Source: Candidatus Omnitrophota bacterium
GTDB taxonomy: Bacteria > Omnitrophota > Gorgyraeia > JABMRG01
Assembly (NCBI GenBank): GCA_013202525.1
Contig: JABMQS010000001.1
Location: 1 to 41,847 of the forward strand
DNA: 41,847 bases
Direction: 5' to 3'
The translations under genes and the position numbers were made by a program. Each line of letters opens with the position of its first letter. The stretch's first letter is position 1. The notes below the pieces were generated by a model. The model saw only the letters and a program-made list of their open reading frames with translations. It did not search any database and was not told where the DNA came from. Of this stretch, positions 1 to 41,073 are shown piece by piece.

Positions 1-2000
1 GTTGCGCGGCCATCTTCATTGTACTGATTTTTGGTGATGTTGAGCCTGGTCTTTGAATCCGGGTCTGTGTAGGTGTAGTTAGCTATATCCTGGTTGCGAA
101 TAATATATTCGATTACATCCTGGCCTTCTTCGTATATGTTTATCATAGAGACCGAGGATCTCATCTGGTATGAACCTTCTAAATATTCCCTTGAGGTCAA
201 TGTCTTCTCAACCCTGCCGTCCTTATCCACCCTTGTCTGCTCTGTGGCTATTATCTTGCCATCTGCATCCTTTGTGGTCCTGCTAAATGACCAATCCTGT
301 GATGTCAGCTCGCTGGGGTCCTGGGTATTATCGTAGTATTCCCTGTGCCTTGTGCGGAATGTTACCTCTGCCTGACCCTCTCCCTGGGCATAGGTATAGG
401 TGTGTGTATCGACCCAGGATGTTGTGTCAGGATTTGTATATATTATGGCATATTCGGTGATCCTCTCCTGCGCGTCATAGCGCCTTGTGATCTCTCTCCT
501 TGAGACATCGCCGTTTGTCCTGTAGCTGGATCTCTCTGATACGGTCTGCAGGAGTTTCTTGTCTGCGCCCTGGCCCTGGTATATGTAGTTGATCTCTGTC
601 TCTGTAAGCTGACCGTTCTCCGCTATGACCGTATATATATTCCTCAGGATATCACCGTCATCATCGTATATGGTGTAGGTCCTGTAGATGGTGCCACTCT
701 CACTCACCCATTCGCTCTGATAGTCGGTCAGCTCCATCTGGCTGTTTCTGATCTCACTGACCTTCCATATCCTGCCATCTGTCATGGAAGAGCTCGCCTC
801 TGTCTTGATCTTCCCATCCTCCAGTGTCTCTGTCAGGGTCACGGTGAAATCAGCGTCATAGACTGTATCACCATCTGCCCTGGTCTTGACCTCATGGAAG
901 CCTGTTACATTTCCGTCTTCATCATATGTTATATCTGTCCTTGTTACGGTATAAACAAGGTTGCCATCCTGGTCCCTGCTCTCTTCTACAAAAGATGCCA
1001 TCCTGCCGGATACGTCGATCTGGCTGTCTGTCATGACCGTGCTGTAGGCATCCTTGTAGGCATCGATGCCCAATTCGCTATATACGTAACCCTCTTCCGT
1101 CTGGTTGTTATCTGTATCATATACCTTGCGGAAGTAGCTTATAAGCTCGCCTGTCTGCATGTCATATATGCACTCCGAAGCCTCTATCCTGTATGCAACA
1201 TTTCCGTCTTCATCGTAGACCAGCTCGGTATAGCTCTCCGGGTTGTTATTTGAGTCGTAGTTAATATTTGATCTCTTATGGGTGAACTCTCCGATCTCCT
1301 GCCAGGTGCCGGTCGCAATGCTGTAGAAGCGCTCGCTGGTCTTGTATGTGATGAGCTTTTTGTCGGCGTTGGTATCCTCATCAGCATACCAGAGGGAATC
1401 CGCTGTATACTCGGCATCATACCAATGGACCTCGCTTATGCCGCCGTACTCATCCCTGGTCCTTGAGGTATACTCTACGAGAAGCGCCCTATCGTTGTAC
1501 TTCATGTCATAGGTATCTCTGTAGTAAACGCGGCCTGCATCCTCGACCCTCTCATCGTATATGGCCACGACATTACCTCTGAAGAACTCTATTTTTTTCT
1601 GCTTACCGTTCTCATCCTCGGGGAAGAGGACATATGTCTTTGAAGCTCTATGAATGAGGTCTCTGGCTTTTTCGATCTGCTTGAGGAGTGCGCTTACCTG
1701 CTGGTAGCTTGAGTACATGGTGGCAAAGAGGTGGGACTTCATGTCATAGGTAGCCTGGTTGAGGGACTTCATCCTCTCGTGCTCTATGACGGCCTTCTGC
1801 TGGACATGCTGCTGTTCCTGCTTTAAGGCCTTTATAAATTCGATAGCGCTAAAGCCCTGCTTCTCGCTGGTCCTTTCACGCTGCCTTCTTTCAATGTCAG
1901 CTGCGCCGGCATAGGCAAGCTGCTGCCACATAAATGTAACTATGACTATCCACGAGATAGTCTTAAATGTCCTGCTATATGTACTTCGGTGTCTTTCCAT
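1..2000 (-). CDS. Large secreted repeat-rich protein, N-terminal 666 residues (runs off the left edge)
   Basis: The frame is open from an ATG at 2000 to the window edge with no stop, so only the N-terminus is seen. Residues about 10-31 form a hydrophobic segment ending WQQLAYAG, a plausible signal peptide or membrane anchor. Residues about 32-130 are charged and Gln-rich (helical or coiled coil). From about residue 135 the chain is a long run of degenerate beta-type repeats rich in Tyr, Asp, Thr and Gly, with recurring YDEDGN, YDDDGD and KDADGK motifs resembling YD/RHS-like or MORN-like strands. Cysteine is almost absent. The family was not identified; very large secreted proteins of this style are known from Omnitrophota, and a surface or adhesive role is inference. 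Upstream there is only a weak purine-rich site (GGGAGCGGAAAAAAGG) and no confident promoter. Confidence 0.8.
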   Translation of the reverse strand, partial: MERHRSTYSRTFKTISWIVIVTFMWQQLAYAGAADIERRQRERTSEKQGFSAIEFIKALKQEQQHVQQKAVIEHERMKSLNQATYDMKSHLFATMYSSYQQVSALLKQIEKARDLIHRASKTYVLFPEDENGKQKKIEFFRGNVVAIYDERVEDAGRVYYRDTYDMKYNDRALLVEYTSRTRDEYGGISEVHWYDAEYTADSLWYADEDTNADKKLITYKTSERFYSIATGTWQEIGEFTHKRSNINYDSNNNPESYTELVYDEDGNVAYRIEASECIYDMQTGELISYFRKVYDTDNNQTEEGYVYSELGIDAYKDAYSTVMTDSQIDVSGRMASFVEESRDQDGNLVYTVTRTDITYDEDGNVTGFHEVKTRADGDTVYDADFTVTLTETLEDGKIKTEASSSMTDGRIWKVSEIRNSQMELTDYQSEWVSESGTIYRTYTIYDDDGDILRNIYTVIAENGQLTETEINYIYQGQGADKKLLQTVSERSSYRTNGDVSRREITRRYDAQERITEYAIIYTNPDTTSWVDTHTYTYAQGEGQAEVTFRTRHREYYDNTQDPSELTSQDWSFSRTTKDADGKIIATEQTRVDKDGRVEKTLTSREYLEGSYQMRSSVSMINIYEEGQDVIEYIIRNQDIANYTYTDPDSKTRLNITKNQYNEDGRA

Positions 2001-2553: not shown

Positions 2554-3429
2554 CTAACAGAGAACGGGTAATTTATGTTTTGAGATGAGGAATTCTGCCT
2601 CTGTTATCTGGCCAAGAAACTCGCCGTCAAGCATCAGATTGCAGGGCTTATGCATCGCTATCTTCATCCTGTTAAGGCAGTGTTTTGAACCGGGGTAATA
2701 GAAATAGGTCTTTGTCAATATACCAATATTCCACATGAGCTGGCCGATGGCACCCATCTTGCTAACCCACACATTGAAGTTTCCATCTGAAAAAGAGGCC
2801 TCCCGGCATACAGGCATATATGCTATGTGGGTTGTATTATTGATGAGTAGATCTGTAAACTCCATCCCACAAGGTGAGTGCCCGTTTAGAGAAACCTCGG
2901 CCATCATTCTCTCTCTCTTGATGGAATGGTAGAATGCCGCTGCGGCGTAGCACCTCTTTCCTATCCTCTTAAACATGGCATTGGCGCTTTTTGCCACATC
3001 CGCAAAAAAACCTATGCCTGCTGTTACAACCATATACCTGCGGTCTTGGGTATCATTGTTCTTAAAGCGCACCTCTACCAGATCTACATCTCTGGTCTCT
3101 TCTCTTTCTATTGCCTCAAGCGCGCCTTCTACAGAGCTTATACCCAGATCATGCGACAGGCTGTTGCCGGTACCTATAGGCAGTATGCCAAAGGTCTGCC
3201 TTCCGATCTCCACGCCATTTACTATCTCAAACGTGGTGCCGTCTCCGCCTGCCGATATGATAGTATCAAAACCGCTCGCATCCTTTACAATATCAGAGAC
3301 AGCGCCTGGATACTCACTCATGCGGACCTCGGCCCCAAGCCTCTTCTTCAAGGCCTCGATAAGCGAAGACGCCTCTCTCTTCCTGAGCCTCCCCAGACAC
3401 TCTGAATTCACTATCGCAAGTCTTCTCAT
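2554..3429 (-). CDS. Diacylglycerol kinase / sphingosine kinase-family lipid kinase (YegS/DagK-like)
   Basis: Predicted ATP-dependent lipid kinase that would phosphorylate diacylglycerol or a related membrane lipid on the cytoplasmic face. With the start at 3429 it has 291 residues, close to the usual length of about 300. The GGDGT nucleotide loop is at residues 61-65, followed by GILPIGTGNS at 81-90, both hallmarks of the DAGK catalytic domain. The C-terminal beta domain contains LMLDGEFLG, the typical DGE motif. An upstream ATG at 3549 would add 40 residues, but that stretch is encoded by the inverted-repeat block at 3442-3631, so I chose 3429, where family homology begins. Its ribosome site is poor. 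It lies downstream of the Lgt-GspG fusion, probably in the same transcription unit. The exact substrate is not evident. Confidence 0.85.
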   Translation of the reverse strand: MRRLAIVNSECLGRLRKREASSLIEALKKRLGAEVRMSEYPGAVSDIVKDASGFDTIISAGGDGTTFEIVNGVEIGRQTFGILPIGTGNSLSHDLGISSVEGALEAIEREETRDVDLVEVRFKNNDTQDRRYMVVTAGIGFFADVAKSANAMFKRIGKRCYAAAAFYHSIKRERMMAEVSLNGHSPCGMEFTDLLINNTTHIAYMPVCREASFSDGNFNVWVSKMGAIGQLMWNIGILTKTYFYYPGSKHCLNRMKIAMHKPCNLMLDGEFLGQITEAEFLISKHKLPVLC

Positions 3430-3441
3430 ATTAAGAATTTG

Positions 3442-3631
3442 TAAGAATTTGGAGACGTCTATAAGAATTTGGAGACGTCTACCAAGCTGAGCACGAACCT
3501 GTCCTGTTTCCAAGCACGAACCTGTCTTGTCTTTTTCTGCTACGGACAATAATGAAGGCTTGTGTGATTTTTTAAGACAGGTTCCCGAACAAATTCTGGA
3601 CAGGTTCGTGCTTGGATCGGTAGACGTCTCC
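3442..3631. repeat. Inverted-repeat block with a perfect 20-bp tandem duplication (family also at 19475-19586)
   Basis: Positions 3442-3461 and 3462-3481 are identical 20-mers (TAAGAATTTGGAGACGTCTA). The left arm, about 3471-3532, reads GGAGACGTCTACC followed by two copies of GCACGAACCTGTC. The right arm, 3573-3631, is its reverse complement with the same ordered motifs (GACAGGTTCCCGAAC, GGACAGGTTCGTGC, GGTAGACGTCTCC). The loop is about 40 bases. The same GGAGACGT-TACC and TTCGGGAACCTGTC motifs recur between recG and rsmD. It looks like a dispersed palindromic repeat of non-coding origin. Confidence 0.75.
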
Positions 3632-3634
3632 AGA

Positions 3635-4819
3635 TTAGTTGGTGGAGATGGTGCAAAAGGATGCGGGGCCTTCTCCGTTTACCGTGTATTTATAGGGCCT
3701 GCCCTTCTCATCATTGAATGGCTTATTTGTATACGGCCCGCTCCAATTCTGCGGCAGCGGCCCTGTATCGGGCTTCACCAATAGCGCCTTAAGCCCCTGT
3801 TTCTCTGTGGGGTATTGGCCATTGTCAATTCTGTATGCCTCCAGGGCGCTTCGGATCTCTGCCTTTGATGCATATTCCCGCGCCTTTGTCCTGAAGGTTG
3901 AGATAAAGGTAGTTTCTTGCCCGCTTACCCCGGCTGCATCGCCTTTGCCTATTATTATCTCTCCGGGAAAATTTGACTTTGGCACAAAGGTGAGTATTGC
4001 CAGTATAACTACGGCAGAAATTACAAGGGTTGCTGCAAACGACAGAAACATGCCCCTTAGCTGACTGATAAGGCCTGCCTTCTGAACACCCCTTTTACAT
4101 ACCCTGTATAGCCCTATTGCCCCATATATAACTATAAGAAATAAAACGAATTGTGAAAGTTTTAATGAGCCAAGCAGCGCAGGGCTGTCTACCCTGAAGA
4201 ACTCAACAAAGAAGCGGCCGACCCCATACATTATTATTGCTGAAAAGAATATAGCCCCGGGTACATCGCGCAACTTCTTGTAGTATAATCTCCCCGCGAC
4301 AAATATAGACAGGCCCAGTATCATCATATAGGCCTGGGTCGGTTGGCGAAGTATGCCATCGCCTGCATATACTGCCCATGGGAGGTCCGAGGCAGTGCCA
4401 TGGCAGCAGCCTGTCAAAAGACATCCTATCCTACCTATCAGGCGGTGGATCCCAGCGAAAGGTATGATATAATCCGCCATATAGAGAAAGCTGATCTTCG
4501 AATACCTGCAATATATATAAATAGACAAAAACCCAAATAATGCCCCTCCCAGAAAAGCCTGGCCTGCGGTAGATAATATCTCAATCGGGCCTTTGCCACT
4601 GTATGCCCCGGTCTTCAACAGGATATGCACAAAAGCCGCCCCTAAGACTGCAAATGATATCATTACCGCACACGCCCCTATGACCTGCCGCCTGTTCAGC
4701 AGGGAGTCCTTATCTAAAAGAATGAGGGCAAGTACAACAAGAACGGCAAACGCCGCAAAATAGAATATGTCGTAGCTGCCTATGTTGAAAGACCCTATTA
4801 CTATATCAAACGGATACAT
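3635..4819 (-). CDS. Lgt-like membrane protein fused to a GspG-type pseudopilin domain
   Basis: 394 residues in one open frame. Residues 1-240 resemble prolipoprotein diacylglyceryl transferase: multiple membrane helices, GQAFLGGALFG (86-96) at the HGGL position, HRLIGRIGCLLTGCCHG (125-141) at the Lgt signature, and YGVGRFFVEFFR (198-209) at the C-terminal Arg/Glu motif. The His of HGGL is replaced by Leu. A further helix spans about 258-279. Residues about 316-394 match the soluble core of the type II secretion major pseudopilin GspG: ALEAYRIDNGQYPTEKQGL, then a WSGPY segment and KGRPYKY. No prepilin cleavage site precedes it, so this domain is probably tethered outside the membrane. A canonical lgt exists at 10247-10981, so this is a paralogue. 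It overlaps the upstream SDR gene by 14 bp. Lipid transfer to pilin-like partners is speculation. Confidence 0.8.
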   Translation of the reverse strand: MYPFDIVIGSFNIGSYDIFYFAAFAVLVVLALILLDKDSLLNRRQVIGACAVMISFAVLGAAFVHILLKTGAYSGKGPIEILSTAGQAFLGGALFGFLSIYIYCRYSKISFLYMADYIIPFAGIHRLIGRIGCLLTGCCHGTASDLPWAVYAGDGILRQPTQAYMMILGLSIFVAGRLYYKKLRDVPGAIFFSAIIMYGVGRFFVEFFRVDSPALLGSLKLSQFVLFLIVIYGAIGLYRVCKRGVQKAGLISQLRGMFLSFAATLVISAVVILAILTFVPKSNFPGEIIIGKGDAAGVSGQETTFISTFRTKAREYASKAEIRSALEAYRIDNGQYPTEKQGLKALLVKPDTGPLPQNWSGPYTNKPFNDEKGRPYKYTVNGEGPASFCTISTN

Positions 4820-5927
4820 ATCTGTGTTGTGCCATCCTCTCTCTCATATACTTAAATACCGAGCGGACCTCATCATCCCTCAATGAATTGTAGCAAAACC
4901 CCTTATCCTTTAATACCTTATCGGCATTCCTGGAATCAAATCGCGCTTTAAAATTAAAATACGGTATAAACGGCCCTACCATCTGCCTCTGTATGCCTGT
5001 CAGACTATTCATATCAAAATCCTCCAGTGGCACCCGGGCAGGCCTTTTTAGCTCAAAGACCTCTTGCGCTATGTCGAGCGCGTGGTCAAAGGGGAGCTCT
5101 GAATTATTTACGATATGATAGTTGCGGCCCTTTCCGTTTGTTGATAATGATATAAGCGATACGGCCTTTGCAGCATCCTCCGCGGAAACAACGTTAAACT
5201 TCGTATTGCCGTATACCGGTATCTTATCAAAGGTGCCGGATATTATAAAATGGAAAGGGCGAAATAGCCCGCTCAAAAACTCATAATCCACGACAGGAAT
5301 GGAATCTGTCAGGATAGAAGGCCTGTAGATATCAACGGCAAGGCCCTTCTTCCTGTAATCATTTACAGCAAGTTCTGCTTCGTATTTGCTCTCTTCGTAG
5401 GTGTTATTGAAACCTTGCGATATCGCAAGATCATCTTCGCGAAATACAATGTCGCTTTTGCCCTTGGTGCCGACTACATAGGCTGTACTTACGTGGCAGA
5501 GCTTCTTCAGTCTGCCATATGTCTTGCACATAGACGCGAATTCAAGCACATTCTGCGTGCCGTAGGCATTTACCACCCTGATGCCCTCGTCAGAGTTGCC
5601 AATATTTACATCTGCTGCCAGATGATATATGAGATCGATGTCTTTAGCGATCTCCTTGAGCCTATCCCCGTCCATGCCAAGGCCTTCTTTGGCAATGTCC
5701 CCCTCTACGATAGTGATCCTTTTCAGGTAATCTTCTATCCTGGCATCGGAGGTTATGCCCGAAAGCGCAGATTTGAGCCTTGGGATAGAGGTCTGCTTCT
5801 TCCTGGGTCTGATTAAAAGAAAAAGGTGGGATTGACTGCTGTCCAATATAACCTTAAGAAGCCTTGAGCCAAAAAAGCCCGTGGCTCCTGTCATAAATAT
5901 ATTTCGCTGATCTAAGGAATTAGGCAT
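4806..5927 (-). CDS. NAD(P)-dependent SDR, thioester/fatty-acyl reductase-like (NAD_binding_4 type)
   Basis: Extended short-chain dehydrogenase of 373 residues. The nucleotide-binding motif GATGFFG is at residues 14-20, a conserved HVSTAYV segment at 145-151 supplies the active-site Ser/Thr region, and the catalytic Tyr-Lys pair lies in TYEESKYEAE (Y177, K181). YHLAADVN and DIYRPSIL fit the male-sterility / carboxylic-acid-reductase R-domain family, which reduces acyl thioesters to aldehydes or alcohols. An ordinary sugar-nucleotide epimerase is possible but fits less well. I chose the ATG at 5927, just before the Rossmann fold. A start at 5969 would add 14 residues inside aroA. The gene overlaps aroA by 16 bp and the Lgt-GspG fusion by 14 bp, so translation is probably coupled. 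Substrate unknown. Confidence 0.8.
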   Translation of the reverse strand: MPNSLDQRNIFMTGATGFFGSRLLKVILDSSQSHLFLLIRPRKKQTSIPRLKSALSGITSDARIEDYLKRITIVEGDIAKEGLGMDGDRLKEIAKDIDLIYHLAADVNIGNSDEGIRVVNAYGTQNVLEFASMCKTYGRLKKLCHVSTAYVVGTKGKSDIVFREDDLAISQGFNNTYEESKYEAELAVNDYRKKGLAVDIYRPSILTDSIPVVDYEFLSGLFRPFHFIISGTFDKIPVYGNTKFNVVSAEDAAKAVSLISLSTNGKGRNYHIVNNSELPFDHALDIAQEVFELKRPARVPLEDFDMNSLTGIQRQMVGPFIPYFNFKARFDSRNADKVLKDKGFCYNSLRDDEVRSVFKYMRERMAQHRYVSV

Positions 5928-7204
5928 CGTAAGGTATCCATAAAATCCGGAAATGATGTTGCTATGCATTCTGTATCGTTAACCGTAGTAGTACCTTCTG
6001 CCACAGAACCTGCTATAACCATCATCATGGCAGTGCGATGATCGCCGAAACTTTCGGCAGAGGCACCCTTTAACCTGCACGGGCCCTTGATGATGATGCT
6101 ATCGCCCTCGCTCTCAATATCAGCACCCATGGCCTTAAGGTTTGTGACAATAGAATTGACCCTGTCCGTCTCCTTGACCCTAAGTTCGCCGCAGCCTTCT
6201 ATAACAGTGGTACCCTCTGCAGCGGTCCCAAGCAATGCGATAAGAGGTATCTCATCTATCAAAAGCGGGACCTCATCCTCTGTAACCTTGGTCGCCTTAA
6301 GGGACGAGCTCTTTATCACAATATCCGCATATGGCTCAAAACCATTATTTTGGTTTGTCAATTCCACATCCGCACCCATTCTCTCCACTACTGTTAATAT
6401 ACCCGTGCGCGTGGGATTTATTCCGCAAGAAGTGAGGATTATCTCCGAATCATCGGCCATAATGCCCAATGTTATGAAGAATGCCGCAGATGATATATCG
6501 CCTGGCACAACTATTCGCTGTGAAGTGAGATTTGAATCATCCAGTCCCCGTACCGATGCGGATAAGCGTTCCTGTGTTACATCTGCCCCGAAGAGCCTCA
6601 GCATCCTCTCGGTATGGTCTCTCGATCTATACGGCTCCGTAACCTTTGTTGTACCATCTGCATATAGTCCTGCAAGAAGTATGGCAGACTTTACCTGGGC
6701 GCTTGCAACTGGGGAGTCGTATTCTATCGGCCCTAGCCTGCCCGGATTTATGATGAGAGGCGCTAGATTCCCGTCATCGCCGCCTTCTATCTTAGCGCCC
6801 ATAAGCCTTAGGGGAGAGGTCACCCTCTTCATCGGCCTCTTAGATAGCGAATCGTCGCCGCAAAGGACGGCCCTGAATCCTGAACCGGCCAACATGCCAA
6901 GCAGAAGACGCATCGTCGTGCCTGAGTTTCCCAGGTAGAGGTCAGACCTCGGTTCTGTCAAGCCCCTCAGGCCTTTACCTTCTATGGTATAGGCCTTATC
7001 GCTGCCCTGCGTTATAACTATACCCATGTTGCTGAATGCATCTATGGTGGCCCGGCAATCCAGCCCATCCAGTAGGTTTGAGACAGAGCTCTTGCCCTCC
7101 GCAATAGATGATATCATAACAGCGCGGTGGGATATTGATTTGTCGCCCGGCAGGGAAACCCTGCCGCGCAGACCGGATATATCTGTTACCTGTATAGTGG
7201 ACAT
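5912..7204 (-). CDS. aroA: 3-phosphoshikimate 1-carboxyvinyltransferase (EPSP synthase)
   Basis: Transfers the enolpyruvyl group of phosphoenolpyruvate to shikimate-3-phosphate, the sixth step of the shikimate route to chorismate and aromatic amino acids; cytoplasmic. The 430-residue length is typical. SLPGDKSISHR (residues 17-27) binds substrate through Lys22, GNSGTTMRLLLGMLAG is the second family signature, and LSKRPMKR, YRSRDHTERML and GDHRTAMM follow in the expected order. The ATG at 7204 is preferred over an in-frame TTG two codons earlier. It follows the coiled-coil gene by 34 bp and overlaps the SDR gene, so it sits inside an envelope-flavoured operon rather than with other aro genes. 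Confidence 0.96.
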   Translation of the reverse strand: MSTIQVTDISGLRGRVSLPGDKSISHRAVMISSIAEGKSSVSNLLDGLDCRATIDAFSNMGIVITQGSDKAYTIEGKGLRGLTEPRSDLYLGNSGTTMRLLLGMLAGSGFRAVLCGDDSLSKRPMKRVTSPLRLMGAKIEGGDDGNLAPLIINPGRLGPIEYDSPVASAQVKSAILLAGLYADGTTKVTEPYRSRDHTERMLRLFGADVTQERLSASVRGLDDSNLTSQRIVVPGDISSAAFFITLGIMADDSEIILTSCGINPTRTGILTVVERMGADVELTNQNNGFEPYADIVIKSSSLKATKVTEDEVPLLIDEIPLIALLGTAAEGTTVIEGCGELRVKETDRVNSIVTNLKAMGADIESEGDSIIIKGPCRLKGASAESFGDHRTAMMMVIAGSVAEGTTTVNDTECIATSFPDFMDTLRCLIP

Positions 7205-9359: not shown

Positions 9360-10250
9360 TCATCCTCTGTCTAAACTCTTCAGTTCTTCGGGTATCTCGA
9401 CCGCAAATTTGAGTTGTTCCCCGGTGCACGGGTGCTTTAGGGTAAGTCCGGCAGCATACAGGGCTATCCTTTTGAACCGCCCGCCCCCATACTTGGTATC
9501 GCCTATAATAGGACAGCCCATGTAGGAGGCATGGACCCTTATCTGGTGTGTCCTGCCGGTCTCAAGGCTCAGCTCAAGTTTCGTATACTCCTTAAATCTC
9601 TTTAATACCTTATATCTCGTTATTGCTTCTTTGGAGTTATGAAACCTCACCGCCATCTTCTTCCTGTCCCTCAATGCCCTTCCTATCGGGAAGGATATTA
9701 CACCGTTATCCTGCGGCGGACTGTCCTTGACAAAGGCTATATATCTCCTGCTTATCGTCCTGTTCTTAAACCCATCGACCAGGACCGTATACGCGCTGTC
9801 TGTCTTGGCAACGACCATGAGGCCGGAGACCTCCTTGTCAAGCCTGTGGACGATTCCGGGCCTTGGGCCGTCAAGGTGTGAGAGTTTGCCCTTTGTATGA
9901 AACAGCAGCGCATTGACAAGGGTATGCTCGGGATTTCCTGCTGCAGGGTGGACAACTATGCCTGAGGCCTTATTGACCACCAGTATATCATCGTCTTCAT
10001 AGACAACATCGATGGATATCTTCTCGGCCAAAACTTTTGGCTTTCGATCTTCCGGCATAAGGACATCGATGGTCTGCGAGGCCTTTACAGGGTAGTGGAC
10101 CTTTCTCGACTTTCCATCGACCGAAACCCTGCCTTCCTTGATGAGCCGTTTTATCTGGCTGCGCGAGCAGATCCCCTTGAGGCTCTCCGCAAGAAAGGTG
10201 TCGAGCCTTTTACCCTCATCACCTGGTTTTGTTTTTATGATTTCTTTCAT
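9360..10250 (-). CDS. rluD: RluA/RluD-family 23S rRNA pseudouridine synthase
   Basis: Isomerises specific uridines to pseudouridine, most likely in 23S rRNA. 296 residues. An N-terminal S4 RNA-binding domain (about residues 10-75, with RLDTFLAE and SQIKRLIKEGRVSVDG) precedes the catalytic domain. The active-site segment PGIVHRLDKEVSGLMVVAK carries the catalytic Asp, and GRTHQIRVHASYMGCPIIGD is the second hallmark. The start at 10250 gives an ATGA 4-bp overlap with the lgt stop, which favours it over an upstream GTG/ATG in lgt. RluD versus RluA/RluC cannot be fixed from motifs alone; the S4 domain and length favour RluD. Followed by dispersed element copy A. Confidence 0.9.
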   Translation of the reverse strand: MKEIIKTKPGDEGKRLDTFLAESLKGICSRSQIKRLIKEGRVSVDGKSRKVHYPVKASQTIDVLMPEDRKPKVLAEKISIDVVYEDDDILVVNKASGIVVHPAAGNPEHTLVNALLFHTKGKLSHLDGPRPGIVHRLDKEVSGLMVVAKTDSAYTVLVDGFKNRTISRRYIAFVKDSPPQDNGVISFPIGRALRDRKKMAVRFHNSKEAITRYKVLKRFKEYTKLELSLETGRTHQIRVHASYMGCPIIGDTKYGGGRFKRIALYAAGLTLKHPCTGEQLKFAVEIPEELKSLDRG

Positions 10251-10981
10251 GGTTGTCTTTTGGTTATAGCGTAGAGCCACAGGCCGGCGGCTACAAGGCC
10301 GATGCTTATAAGCTGGCCTGTGCCAAACCACAAGATCAGCGGTTCAACGTCTCCTCGTAAAAACTCGAGTAGGAACCTGAGGGCCCCGTAGGAGATGAGG
10401 TAGAGTGAGAATATCTCGCCCTTGAACCTTCTCCTTCCCTGCATAAAAAAGAGCGCTATGAATATAATGAAGAGTCCTGCTGAAGAAAAGAGCTGCGTTG
10501 GATATATTGCCGTATCGCTATAAGGGAAGACGATGCCCAGGCCTGACGATGTCGGCTTGCCGTAGCAACATCCATTCAAAAAACAGCCTATCCTGCCGAT
10601 GGCATGGCCCAATGCTACAAACGGCGCCAGGAGATCCATCGTGTCCAGGATCGGCATCTTATGGATCCTGGCAAATATAAACCCTGCTGCCAGCGCTGAT
10701 ATAAACCCGCCGTAAAAAACAAGGCCTCCTCTATTTATAAAGAGCACCTCTACAGGATGCCTGCTAAAATAGGTTGCATTTAGCAGGACATAGAGCGCCC
10801 GCGCACCGACTAAGCCGGCAACAAGAAGCACAAAGACCAGATTGCCTACAGACTCCTCTGGTATATTGAAGACCCTTGACCTCTTGGAGGCAAGGAGCGC
10901 TGTCAGGATAAAGGCAAGCGCAAGCATGGCCCCGTAAGAATAGACTGTTATGCGACCCATGGAGAATAGGACTGGATACAT
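10247..10981 (-). CDS. lgt: Prolipoprotein diacylglyceryl transferase
   Basis: Inner-membrane enzyme that moves diacylglycerol from phosphatidylglycerol to the lipobox cysteine of preprolipoproteins, the first step of lipoprotein maturation. 244 residues with about seven membrane helices. INRGGLVFYGGF (82-93) is the HGGL region with Tyr in place of His, a common variant. GHAIGRIGCFLNGCCYG (125-141) is the Lgt signature, and YGALRFLLEFLRGD (198-211) supplies the C-terminal Arg. It is followed by rluD with a 4-bp overlap. lspA, the next enzyme of the same pathway, lies just upstream. The GRIG motif falls at the same residue number as in the Lgt-GspG fusion. Confidence 0.95.
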   Translation of the reverse strand: MYPVLFSMGRITVYSYGAMLALAFILTALLASKRSRVFNIPEESVGNLVFVLLVAGLVGARALYVLLNATYFSRHPVEVLFINRGGLVFYGGFISALAAGFIFARIHKMPILDTMDLLAPFVALGHAIGRIGCFLNGCCYGKPTSSGLGIVFPYSDTAIYPTQLFSSAGLFIIFIALFFMQGRRRFKGEIFSLYLISYGALRFLLEFLRGDVEPLILWFGTGQLISIGLVAAGLWLYAITKRQP

Positions 10982-10991
10982 TTTTTTAGCT

Positions 10992-11024
10992 GGTTAGCTT
11001 GTTAGGTTGTTAGGTTGTTAGGTT
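10992..11024. repeat. 8-bp tandem repeat (TGTTAGGT, about four units)
   Basis: Units GGTTAGCT, TGTTAGGT, TGTTAGGT and TGTTAGGT follow one another from 10992 and fill the lspA-lgt gap. On the minus strand the lspA stop codon (11018-11020) falls inside the array, so the repeat sets the C-terminus of LspA. Array length may vary between strains. Confidence 0.8.
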
Positions 11025-11461
11025 TTTCTTTTGGTTACAACCAGATAGAACAAGACTAAAACTGTGCCGATGGTTATGGCCGAGTCTGCTATATTAAACA
11101 CAGGCCAGACCTTAAAGTCTATAAAATCCAGAACATGCCCGTAGGCGATACGGTCGATAAGGTTGCCGCAGGCTCCGGCAAGTATAAGGCAAGACCCCAG
11201 AGACAGAAGCACGGATCCGGGCCTCTTGACCAGGATAATGAACAATATAAAGACTATTGCAATAACCGAAGCCGCTATAAACAGACAAGGCGCGCTCTCC
11301 CGAAAAAGGCCGAATGCCGCGCCTTTATTATAAGTAGGGGTAATATAGAGGATGCCCTTTATGAGGGGCGATGAAGAACCTATGCAAAAGTTCTTAAATA
11401 TAACGAACTTAAGAATACGATCTAGGGCAACTATTATGACAGAAAGGATTAAAAATGGCAC
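11018..11461 (-). CDS. lspA: Lipoprotein signal peptidase (signal peptidase II)
   Basis: Aspartic protease of the inner membrane that cleaves the signal peptide of lipid-modified prolipoproteins after Lgt. Four membrane helices are visible. The catalytic Asp pair lies in GACGNLIDRIAYGHVLDF (Asp103) and VFNIADSAITIG (Asp126), and YNKGAAFGLF is the conserved periplasmic motif. I chose a GTG start at 11461, 16 bp after the dksA-like stop, giving 147 residues. The ATG at 11533 would add 24 residues read from the other frame of the zinc-finger-coding end of that gene and has no ribosome site. Clustered with lgt. Confidence 0.92.
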   Translation of the reverse strand: MPFLILSVIIVALDRILKFVIFKNFCIGSSSPLIKGILYITPTYNKGAAFGLFRESAPCLFIAASVIAIVFILFIILVKRPGSVLLSLGSCLILAGACGNLIDRIAYGHVLDFIDFKVWPVFNIADSAITIGTVLVLFYLVVTKRKT

Positions 11462-11477
11462 GCTTGCCTTGCTCTGG

Positions 11478-11858
11478 TTATTCCTTGGACAACTTATCCT
11501 CTTGCTTCTGGCAAGATATGCATAACTGGGCATAAGGAACCGCGCTTAAGCGTTTCAATGTTATGACCTTGCTGCAGGTCTGGCATTTGCCGAAGTCCTT
11601 ATCCTTCAGGCGCTTCAGCGCATCATCTATCTGATAGAGCAGTTCCTGCTCATTTGCAGCAAGCCCCAGTGCTATCTCGCGCTCGAAATTATCACTGGCC
11701 ACATCTGCCATATCGAATGCATATCCGGAAAGGTCTCCGGAGGCCTCTCTCTGTGACTGGCCAAGTGCATCCTGCCTGATATGCTTTATCTTTTCTACAA
11801 GATCGTCTCTTTTCTTGGATAATATATTTTTGAGTTTCTCTTTCTTCTTTCTGTCCAT
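11478..11858 (-). CDS. dksA: DksA/TraR-family zinc-finger regulator
   Basis: 126 residues: a predicted helical hairpin (about 1-85) followed by a four-Cys zinc finger, C92-x2-C95 and C113-x2-C116. This is the layout of DksA, which binds the RNA polymerase secondary channel and works with ppGpp on rRNA and amino-acid promoters. The acidic tip includes DMADVASDNFE; the Asp-Met-Ala-Asp order differs from the DxxDxA of E. coli DksA, so the activity may not be identical. Flanked by ileS (20 bp upstream) and lspA (16 bp downstream) in one run. It is shorter than E. coli DksA (151 residues) and resembles the short DksA-like proteins common outside Proteobacteria. Confidence 0.85.
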   Translation of the reverse strand: MDRKKKEKLKNILSKKRDDLVEKIKHIRQDALGQSQREASGDLSGYAFDMADVASDNFEREIALGLAANEQELLYQIDDALKRLKDKDFGKCQTCSKVITLKRLSAVPYAQLCISCQKQEDKLSKE

Positions 11859-40112: not shown

Positions 40113-40142
40113 AAAGGAAAAAGGCGGCCCTAAGCAGCCGCT
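40113..40142 (-). terminator. Intrinsic terminator of the pilin-like operon
   Basis: GCGGC / GCCGC stem (40137-40141 with 40124-40128) and an 8-base loop, followed on the minus strand by CTTTTTCCTTT. The stop codon of the last pilin-like gene (40130-40132) lies in the loop. Confidence 0.75.
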
Positions 40143-40639
40143 GAGGCCCGTAATGCACATCCGGAGGTCATGGTAATAGACTCATCTTCATCTGTGTCTG
40201 ATGCCTTTACAGATGTCATGGTGACAGTTACGTAATTCAAAGGCTCCGCGGTGAAAGTAAGGCTGGTTATATTATGAGCTATTGTTGAGGAGGTGCCGGC
40301 ATCATTACGTATGAGGTCTTTGCCGCTCAAGCTGTAGATGACCGTCTTTGTGGAAGTGGGCTCAGGAAGCAAGCCGACAGTAAGCGTAAGCTGCGATGCT
40401 GTAGTATCATCCGCCTCTATGGACAGGAATATGTCTTTTATGATATAAGACATGGCAACAGAGACCTCATCCTGCAACTCAGTTATTACAATCTGTTCTT
40501 TCAGAAGCTCCTGCTGGGTCATGTACGGGTAGATGCCGCCTGCCAAGACGACCAGAAGCAGTATTGTGACTATCAGTATCTCAACGAGTGTCATACCGGA
40601 TGTATCTGTCTTAAGGCGCATAAACCTTCCCTTGATCAT
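40130..40639 (-). CDS. Type IV pilin-like protein (third of cluster)
   Basis: 169 residues. A short basic leader is followed by SG-MTLVEILIVTILLLVVLAG, a class III prepilin signal with Glu at position +5 and a roughly 20-residue hydrophobic helix (residues 15-38). Cleavage and N-methylation by a prepilin peptidase are expected; the peptidase is not in the window. The globular part is Thr/Ser-rich, with a helix (ELQDEVSVAMSYIIKDIFL) and beta strands, typical of minor pilins or pseudopilins (PilW/GspJ-like). Overlaps the preceding gene by 4 bp. Function as a minor pilin or pseudopilin is inference. Confidence 0.8.
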   Translation of the reverse strand: MIKGRFMRLKTDTSGMTLVEILIVTILLLVVLAGGIYPYMTQQELLKEQIVITELQDEVSVAMSYIIKDIFLSIEADDTTASQLTLTVGLLPEPTSTKTVIYSLSGKDLIRNDAGTSSTIAHNITSLTFTAEPLNYVTVTMTSVKASDTDEDESITMTSGCALRASAAA

Positions 40640-41073
40640 GATATCTCATCCCATGTAACCGTAACCGTTATCTTCTTAAATATCTGATCTGGGGTCTGGC
40701 TTCCATCTACAGCCATCTCTACCCCGTTATTAAACCAGACCTGTGATACGTTATATTGAGCGGCCAGATCGCGGACCTCCTTATTTACAACTATATCCCA
40801 TGAGCTCACATCTAGCACATTATATGCAGCGGCTGGATAGATATGGTTGCCGTTGGTTAAATCCGGGTTGTCATAATCTAAATGGTGTCTCAGGTAATCT
40901 GCCAGTTCATTGGCCCTGTTGATGGCATATGTCTTGTGCTGGAAACGGTGGCCGAACATGCGGGCAAGGAAATAGCTACTGTAGCTTCCGGCAACTGCCA
41001 GGCTCATGATCACAGCTGCCACTATAACCTCTGATAAGGTAAAACCTCTTTTTGATTTCAGCAGTCTTATCAT
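40636..41073 (-). CDS. Type IV pilin-like protein (second of cluster)
   Basis: 145 residues. SKRG-FTLSEVIVAAVIMSLAV is a canonical prepilin cleavage site with Glu+5 and a hydrophobic helix (about 11-32). The remainder is a small soluble domain ending ITVTVTWDEIS, a terminal strand pattern seen in PilV/GspI-like minor pilins. Starts 2 bp after the first gene and overlaps the third by 4 bp, so the three subunits are co-translated. Precise subclass not fixed. Confidence 0.8.
   Translation of the reverse strand: MIRLLKSKRGFTLSEVIVAAVIMSLAVAGSYSSYFLARMFGHRFQHKTYAINRANELADYLRHHLDYDNPDLTNGNHIYPAAAYNVLDVSSWDIVVNKEVRDLAAQYNVSQVWFNNGVEMAVDGSQTPDQIFKKITVTVTWDEIS

Follow-up and report, generated by a model that had tools for sequence, protein, structure and literature searches.

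A fused Lgt–GspG gene in Omnitrophota and the gene neighbourhood of its Lgt clade

Organisation of the locus

The stretch of DNA analysed here (the window; 41,847 nt) is the whole of contig 109 of a Candidatus Omnitrophota genome (G000; 1.64 Mb, 149 contigs). Its minus strand carries, in this order, aroA, an SDR gene, the fusion gene that is the subject of this report, a dispersed repeat, a DAGK-type kinase gene and a giant gene. The fusion gene (P0001; 3635..4819, minus strand) specifies a 394-amino acid protein with an Lgt and a GspG part, an architecture that recurs in a second genome, G003. It is overlapped by 14 nt by the SDR gene (4806..5969, minus strand), the product of which is of the thioester reductase/NAD_binding_4 type (PF07993, E=6e-46). 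On its other side lie the gene of a YegS/DAGK-type lipid kinase (2554..3429, minus strand, with a likely start at 3429; Pfam DAGK_cat, E=1e-18) and the 5' part of a giant secreted-protein gene (3..2000, minus strand), of which 666 residues are seen before the contig end cuts it and which has a homolog in G003 (E=2e-137). The genome's ordinary lgt is also in the window (10247–10981), adjoining lspA (11018–11533). Two prepilin-type proteins are specified near the opposite end of the window, well away from the fusion gene (40130–41073).

Between the fusion and the kinase gene is an inverted-repeat element (3442–3640) with 39-nt arms that are 87% complementary; it abuts the fusion stop codon. The genome contains 45 matches to it, full-length or partial, which makes it a dispersed MITE-like repeat. 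Truncation of the GspG part by this element was considered and rejected, since the fusion of G003 stops at the same place and has no repeat there.

A preliminary description of this DNA, made from the sequence alone, had proposed a single uninterrupted Lgt and GspG frame. The frame was confirmed, on the minus strand, which that description had not given. Correct on the fusion itself, it had not included the adjacent giant gene, the Lgt clade described below, or the absence from the head of a prepilin signal and a calcium-loop end.

Architecture and conservation of the fusion protein

Pfam LGT matches residues 7–237 (E=1.2e-37; 129.9 bits, cut-off 24.9) and T2SSG residues 320–384 (E=7e-15; 55.5 bits, cut-off 21), and beyond these two no Pfam domain scored above its cut-off. 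Both halves of the proposed layout, the GspG half included, are thus matched significantly. The NCBIfam matches to Lgt (6e-27) and GspG (5.5e-16) fall below their equivalog cut-offs, as expected of divergent or partial family members; for TIGR00544 the fusion scores 64.9 bits against the 118.9 required, and the ordinary Lgt of G000 passes with 136.6. Sequence matches in the PDB were to GspG entries (2kep, 3fu1) and to Lgt (5azb). The motifs quoted in the preliminary description are where it had placed them, with GRIGC at 129–133 and YGVGRFFVEFFR at 198–209, and the GspG core motifs YRIDNGQYPTEKQGL and KGRPYKY lie within the C-terminal 80 residues.

Structure prediction, which had been suggested as a check, led through AlphaFold models and Foldseek to E. 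coli Lgt and to GspG/PulG structures. The Lgt-type domain (residues 1–243; 4091..4819, minus strand) has seven helices and is supported by Pfam LGT, AlphaFold and Foldseek: averaged over blocks of ten residues, pLDDT mostly exceeds 90, and 5azb is the top Foldseek match (E=1.3e-8, TM 0.67 on the target). It is followed by a K/R-rich loop and an eighth transmembrane helix (residues 244–280; 3980..4090, minus strand; model helix 247–277), which is the extra membrane helix noticed earlier. The loop before this helix (242–255) contains four K/R and no acidic residue and is, by the positive-inside rule, predicted to be cytoplasmic, which would place the GspG head in the periplasm. A poorly conserved linker (residues 281–311; 3887..3979, minus strand; 19% identity to G003) leads to the GspG-like head (residues 312–383; 3671..3886, minus strand), which is supported by Pfam T2SSG, Foldseek and the codon comparison given below. 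In the full-length AlphaFold model, built with two rows, the head was of low confidence; it was therefore folded with GspG rows, giving pLDDT of about 80–87 over the core and 13 Foldseek matches at E <0.001, all of them to GspG/PulG.

The head resembles GspG/PulG (PF08334; 3g20, 1t92, 4lw9) in its core, YxxDNGxYPTxxQGLxAL...P.NW.GPY...G..Y.Y, and in its predicted fold. Unlike these proteins it has no prepilin cleavage/N-methylation segment, no pilin helix of its own and no calcium-loop end, and it is joined by a linker of about 40 residues to a polytopic membrane enzyme. Pfam N_methyl had no match in P0001; the ordinary GspG of G000 is matched at E=2.6e-8. Aligned with ordinary GspG rows, the gene ends in a short tail and stop (3635..3670, minus strand), and the C-terminal calcium-loop segment (SYGPDG..DDI.NW), present in those rows, is absent from both fusions, that of G003 ending at the same position with tandem stops. 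Since it lacks both the prepilin signal and the end with the calcium loop, the fused head is a tethered domain and not a pseudopilin, in keeping with the membrane-tethered head that had been proposed at the outset. From what is known of type IV filaments, a head lacking both should not undergo normal pseudopilin processing and assembly.

The second fusion (L053, JAUVHV010000014.1) belongs to Ca. Omnitrophota CSMAG_411, which shares its family with G000 and differs in genus. It has the same architecture, length and C-terminus, and is 47% identical over residues 1–382, with 54% in the Lgt part, 27% in the eighth helix, 19% in the linker and 44% in the GspG part. Codon comparison of the two genes gave pN 0.27 and pS 0.79 for the Lgt part, the lowest pN of the protein, 0.35 and 0.79 for the GspG part, and nearly equal values (0.54 and 0.60) for the eighth helix and linker; owing to saturation of synonymous sites these are proportions and not rates. 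Judged from these codons, both the Lgt and the GspG domain are under purifying selection and the linker is without it. An assembly or frameshift join of the two domains is ruled out by the independent G003 assembly and by this selection pattern; a full-length protein of the same architecture in a second genus is no artefact.

The preliminary description knew of no protein with this layout, and G003 was the only other carrier in all genomes searched. Among six genomes of the order the full fusion is present in two, G000 and G003; the relative in G106 has the eighth helix and no GspG part, and no close relative was found in G001, G002 or G087. No further fusion was found among 384 genomes of the class, nor, beyond G003, when 84,980 species genomes were scanned by pattern. 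Long T2SSG frames in G122, G138, G044 and G101 proved to be ordinary GspG genes with long open leaders. Literature searches returned no match linking Omnitrophota with prolipoprotein diacylglyceryl transferase, and no Lgt–pseudopilin fusion was apparent in titles and abstracts. G000 also retains an ordinary gspG (one, on contig 22, its product 51% identical to the fused head) besides its ordinary lgt, and the fusion is thus an extra copy of both parts.

A paralogous Lgt clade beside giant genes

The Lgt half of the fusion belongs to a rare paralogue clade, here named LGT2, which forms a supported group (SH-aLRT 99) apart from the ordinary, lspA-linked Lgts and from E. coli Lgt. A profile of ten members found LGT2 in 13 of the 384 class genomes at 214–363 bits, the next match being at 192 bits, and no additional member in a 384-genome sample of the phylum. 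An ordinary lgt was already present in the LGT2 genomes examined.

Compared with Lgt (PF01790; E. coli 5azb/5azc), the fusion has the same fold and most of the conserved residues, including R143, Y235, R239, E243 and R246. It differs in being a second genomic copy with R73, G98 and H103 changed, in carrying an eighth helix and a C-terminal GspG head, and in its neighbours, which are not lspA but a giant gene, an SDR and a DAGK. Thirteen of 18 Lgt-conserved positions (list in PMC13251419) are retained (Y26, G99, G104, D129, G142, R143, G145, G154, F211, Y235, R239, E243 and R246); R73, G98 and H103 are altered, and the changes N146C and E151C are common to ordinary Lgts of the phylum. G142 is lost in most LGT2 members outside the f1/f2/G076 branch. 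Position 103, the His of the HGGL motif, is Leu or Met in the fusions, and most ordinary Lgts of Omnitrophota have Tyr, Gln or Phe there (Tyr in that of G000 itself), so that Leu at this site is less telling and not decisive. The earlier suggestion that loss of this His might alter activity is not supported, as genuine Lgts show little conservation of His103 (PMC13251419). R143, Y235, R239 and R246 take part in holding the phosphatidylglycerol (PG) head group (PMC8689077), and protein-substrate specificity is governed by arm-2 residues, H103 and the periplasmic head domain (PMC13251419). With the PG-site residues kept and the R73/G98/H103 region changed, the simplest inference is that LGT2 would have kept its lipid site and changed its protein site.

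LGT2 adjoins a giant ORF, or is separated from it by one small gene, in 10 of 12 assessable genomes; of these giants six are seen at 1,291–21,903 aa and four are cut by contig ends. The giant lies either upstream or downstream of LGT2, on the same strand. None of eight ordinary lgt loci (the window, L118–L124) has a giant neighbour, most of them showing the usual ileS/lspA/lgt/rluD/aroA-type context. The difference gave Fisher p=7e-4, or 0.04 when only ORFs >1,000 aa are counted, values which are not independent tests because the counts are small and the genomes related. The thirteenth LGT2 genome, G076, was outside this count; contig ends of these MAGs cut many LGT2 neighbours, and neighbours outside the Pfam-scanned set were named by eye.

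In G003 a giant homologous to that of the window follows the fusion by ~245 bp and runs for 1,678 aa to the contig end. In G081 an ORF of 21,903 uninterrupted codons ends 63 bp before LGT2. This giant (L044, L117, L126–L129; contig 10, 36296–118336) appears to start near 36.3 kb and to span about 82 kb, the frame breaks by repeats at ~40–52.6 kb probably being assembly errors, and its N-terminal hydrophobic segment ends in WYDIAWAGD. The others include giants of at least 3,187 aa (G064), at least 2,971 aa with RHS and laminin-G domains (G249) and at least 1,579 aa with one PilZ gene between (G106), a giant split over two frames with one small gene between (G221), and contig-cut pieces (G204, G235, G031). 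No Pfam domain was found in the scanned pieces of the G003 and G081 giants. As a neighbouring gene of this type, and in the RHS-type and laminin-G domains of LGT2-adjacent relatives, they resemble the giant ORFs described from Omnitrophota (PMC10066038). No link between giant ORFs and an Lgt paralogue was found in the literature searched, a mention in the preprint bioRxiv 2023.11.21.568195 being possible.

In the six giants whose N-termini are visible, a common hydrophobic segment closes with a motif resembling TF-x-WQQ-L-A-W-A, and the first 110 residues contain no cysteine; lacking an N-terminal cysteine, these giants are not classical Lgt clients.

A small secreted protein family lies directly downstream of LGT2 in five f30/f37 genomes (L044:9174–9818, L046:144–800, L042:1262–1915, L047:5866–6462 and L114:8976–9467), with no Pfam match in the two members scanned.

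Possible roles of the fusion

The location of LGT2 mostly beside enormous surface-protein genes suggests an enzyme adapted to those proteins. It is quite possible, and is our tentative reading, that the fusion is an Lgt-type transferase which belongs to giant-protein loci and is specialised in its substrate, the GspG head serving for recognition or docking. In one family an eighth helix would have placed the C-terminus in the periplasm, where a GspG head would have been added. The fusion would, like Lgt, bind a phosphatidylglycerol-like lipid, and would have an exported client of its own to which it transfers diacylglycerol or a different lipid group; the best candidate for this client is the giant encoded next to it, or a partner of that giant. 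More tentatively, the periplasmic head may act in docking or recognition, and would either hold the client or couple the lipid step to the machinery of type II secretion (or of the pilus). The preliminary description had proposed that the head may recognise pilin-like or lipoprotein partners. Genes of the type II secretion types E, F, G, K and M occur in G000 or G003. Pullulanase, which the Pul system exports, is a lipoprotein and so offers a precedent for a single protein that is both lipidated and handled by type II secretion. A reference listed in PMC10790770 names the pullulanase lipoprotein. Against our reading stand the cysteine-free N-termini of the six giants and the two LGT2 loci that are not beside a giant: that of G104 is in a fatty-acid-type cluster, and that of G250, with a contig end close on one side, has a glycosyltransferase gene. 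Its basis, moreover, is two fusion sequences and small linkage counts.

LGT2 may instead belong, although this is somewhat unlikely, to a cassette that makes or remodels glycerolipids with the SDR and the DAGK-type kinase, the acceptor being a lipid or small molecule and the giants secondary. SDR, kinase and LGT2 occur together in G000, G076 and G104, the last of which also has ketoacyl synthase, adh_short (FabG-like), acyl carrier protein and FabA-like genes, and in G250 the kinase occurs, without the SDR, with a family-2 glycosyltransferase. The co-occurrence with SDR and lipid-kinase genes that the preliminary description had raised therefore holds at three of 13 LGT2 loci, but neither gene is beside the G003 fusion and most LGT2 loci have neither next door; a periplasmic protein-like head would also be odd on a lipid enzyme.

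That the Lgt half is a catalytically dead, phospholipid-binding anchor, and that the head does the work, for example by docking on or regulating type II secretion or pilus assembly, is rather doubtful. The changes at R73 and G98 and of H103 to Leu or Met would fit such an anchor, as would selection on the head, but the PG-contacting R143, Y235, R239 and R246 and most essential residues are kept, the Lgt half has the lowest pN of the protein, and H103 varies in ordinary Lgts too (PMC13251419).

A bolder form of our transferase reading is that LGT2 lipidates giant surface proteins which lack a lipobox cysteine, through a new acceptor chemistry or site, and that the GspG head links lipidation directly to type II secretion; we regard this as a long shot. 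In the Skillet-1 prediction a lipobox-like signal without a cysteine has been proposed (PMC12419801).

It is improbable that the fusion is just a second Lgt of the ordinary sort, with cysteine lipobox proteins as substrates and a neutral or lineage-specific ornament as its head: the Lgt fold, most conserved residues and the C-terminal extensions known from M. tuberculosis (PMC13251419) and Hymenobacter would allow it, but the LGT2 genomes examined already have an ordinary lgt, the head is constrained and LGT2 loci lie away from lspA.

As a candidate transferase of giant-protein loci, LGT2 offers a testable handle on the anchoring and export of Omnitrophota proteins of >20,000 residues, a question without genetics so far, and the fusion documents how, in nature, a pseudopilin head was put to new use as a fixed domain in the periplasm.

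Other unusual arrangements of the two families were seen. Lgt-like proteins of 600–660 aa with a long C-terminal extension occur in Hymenobacter and Prolixibacteraceae (L069–L072, L078, L080–L085, L087). Like the M. tuberculosis protein, the extended Lgts of Hymenobacter and relatives (L069–L087) share with the fusion an Lgt core followed by a C-terminal region; unlike the fusion, the Hymenobacter extension has no Pfam match and is not GspG, and R143 is apparently absent. Two Lgt genes lie ~4–5 kb apart on the deltaproteobacterial contigs L056, L057, L061, L063 and L065. Lastly, a single frame in G132 (L146:1147–1926) joins a response-regulator receiver (Pfam, 3.7e-25) to a complete GspG with N_methyl (7.4e-36).
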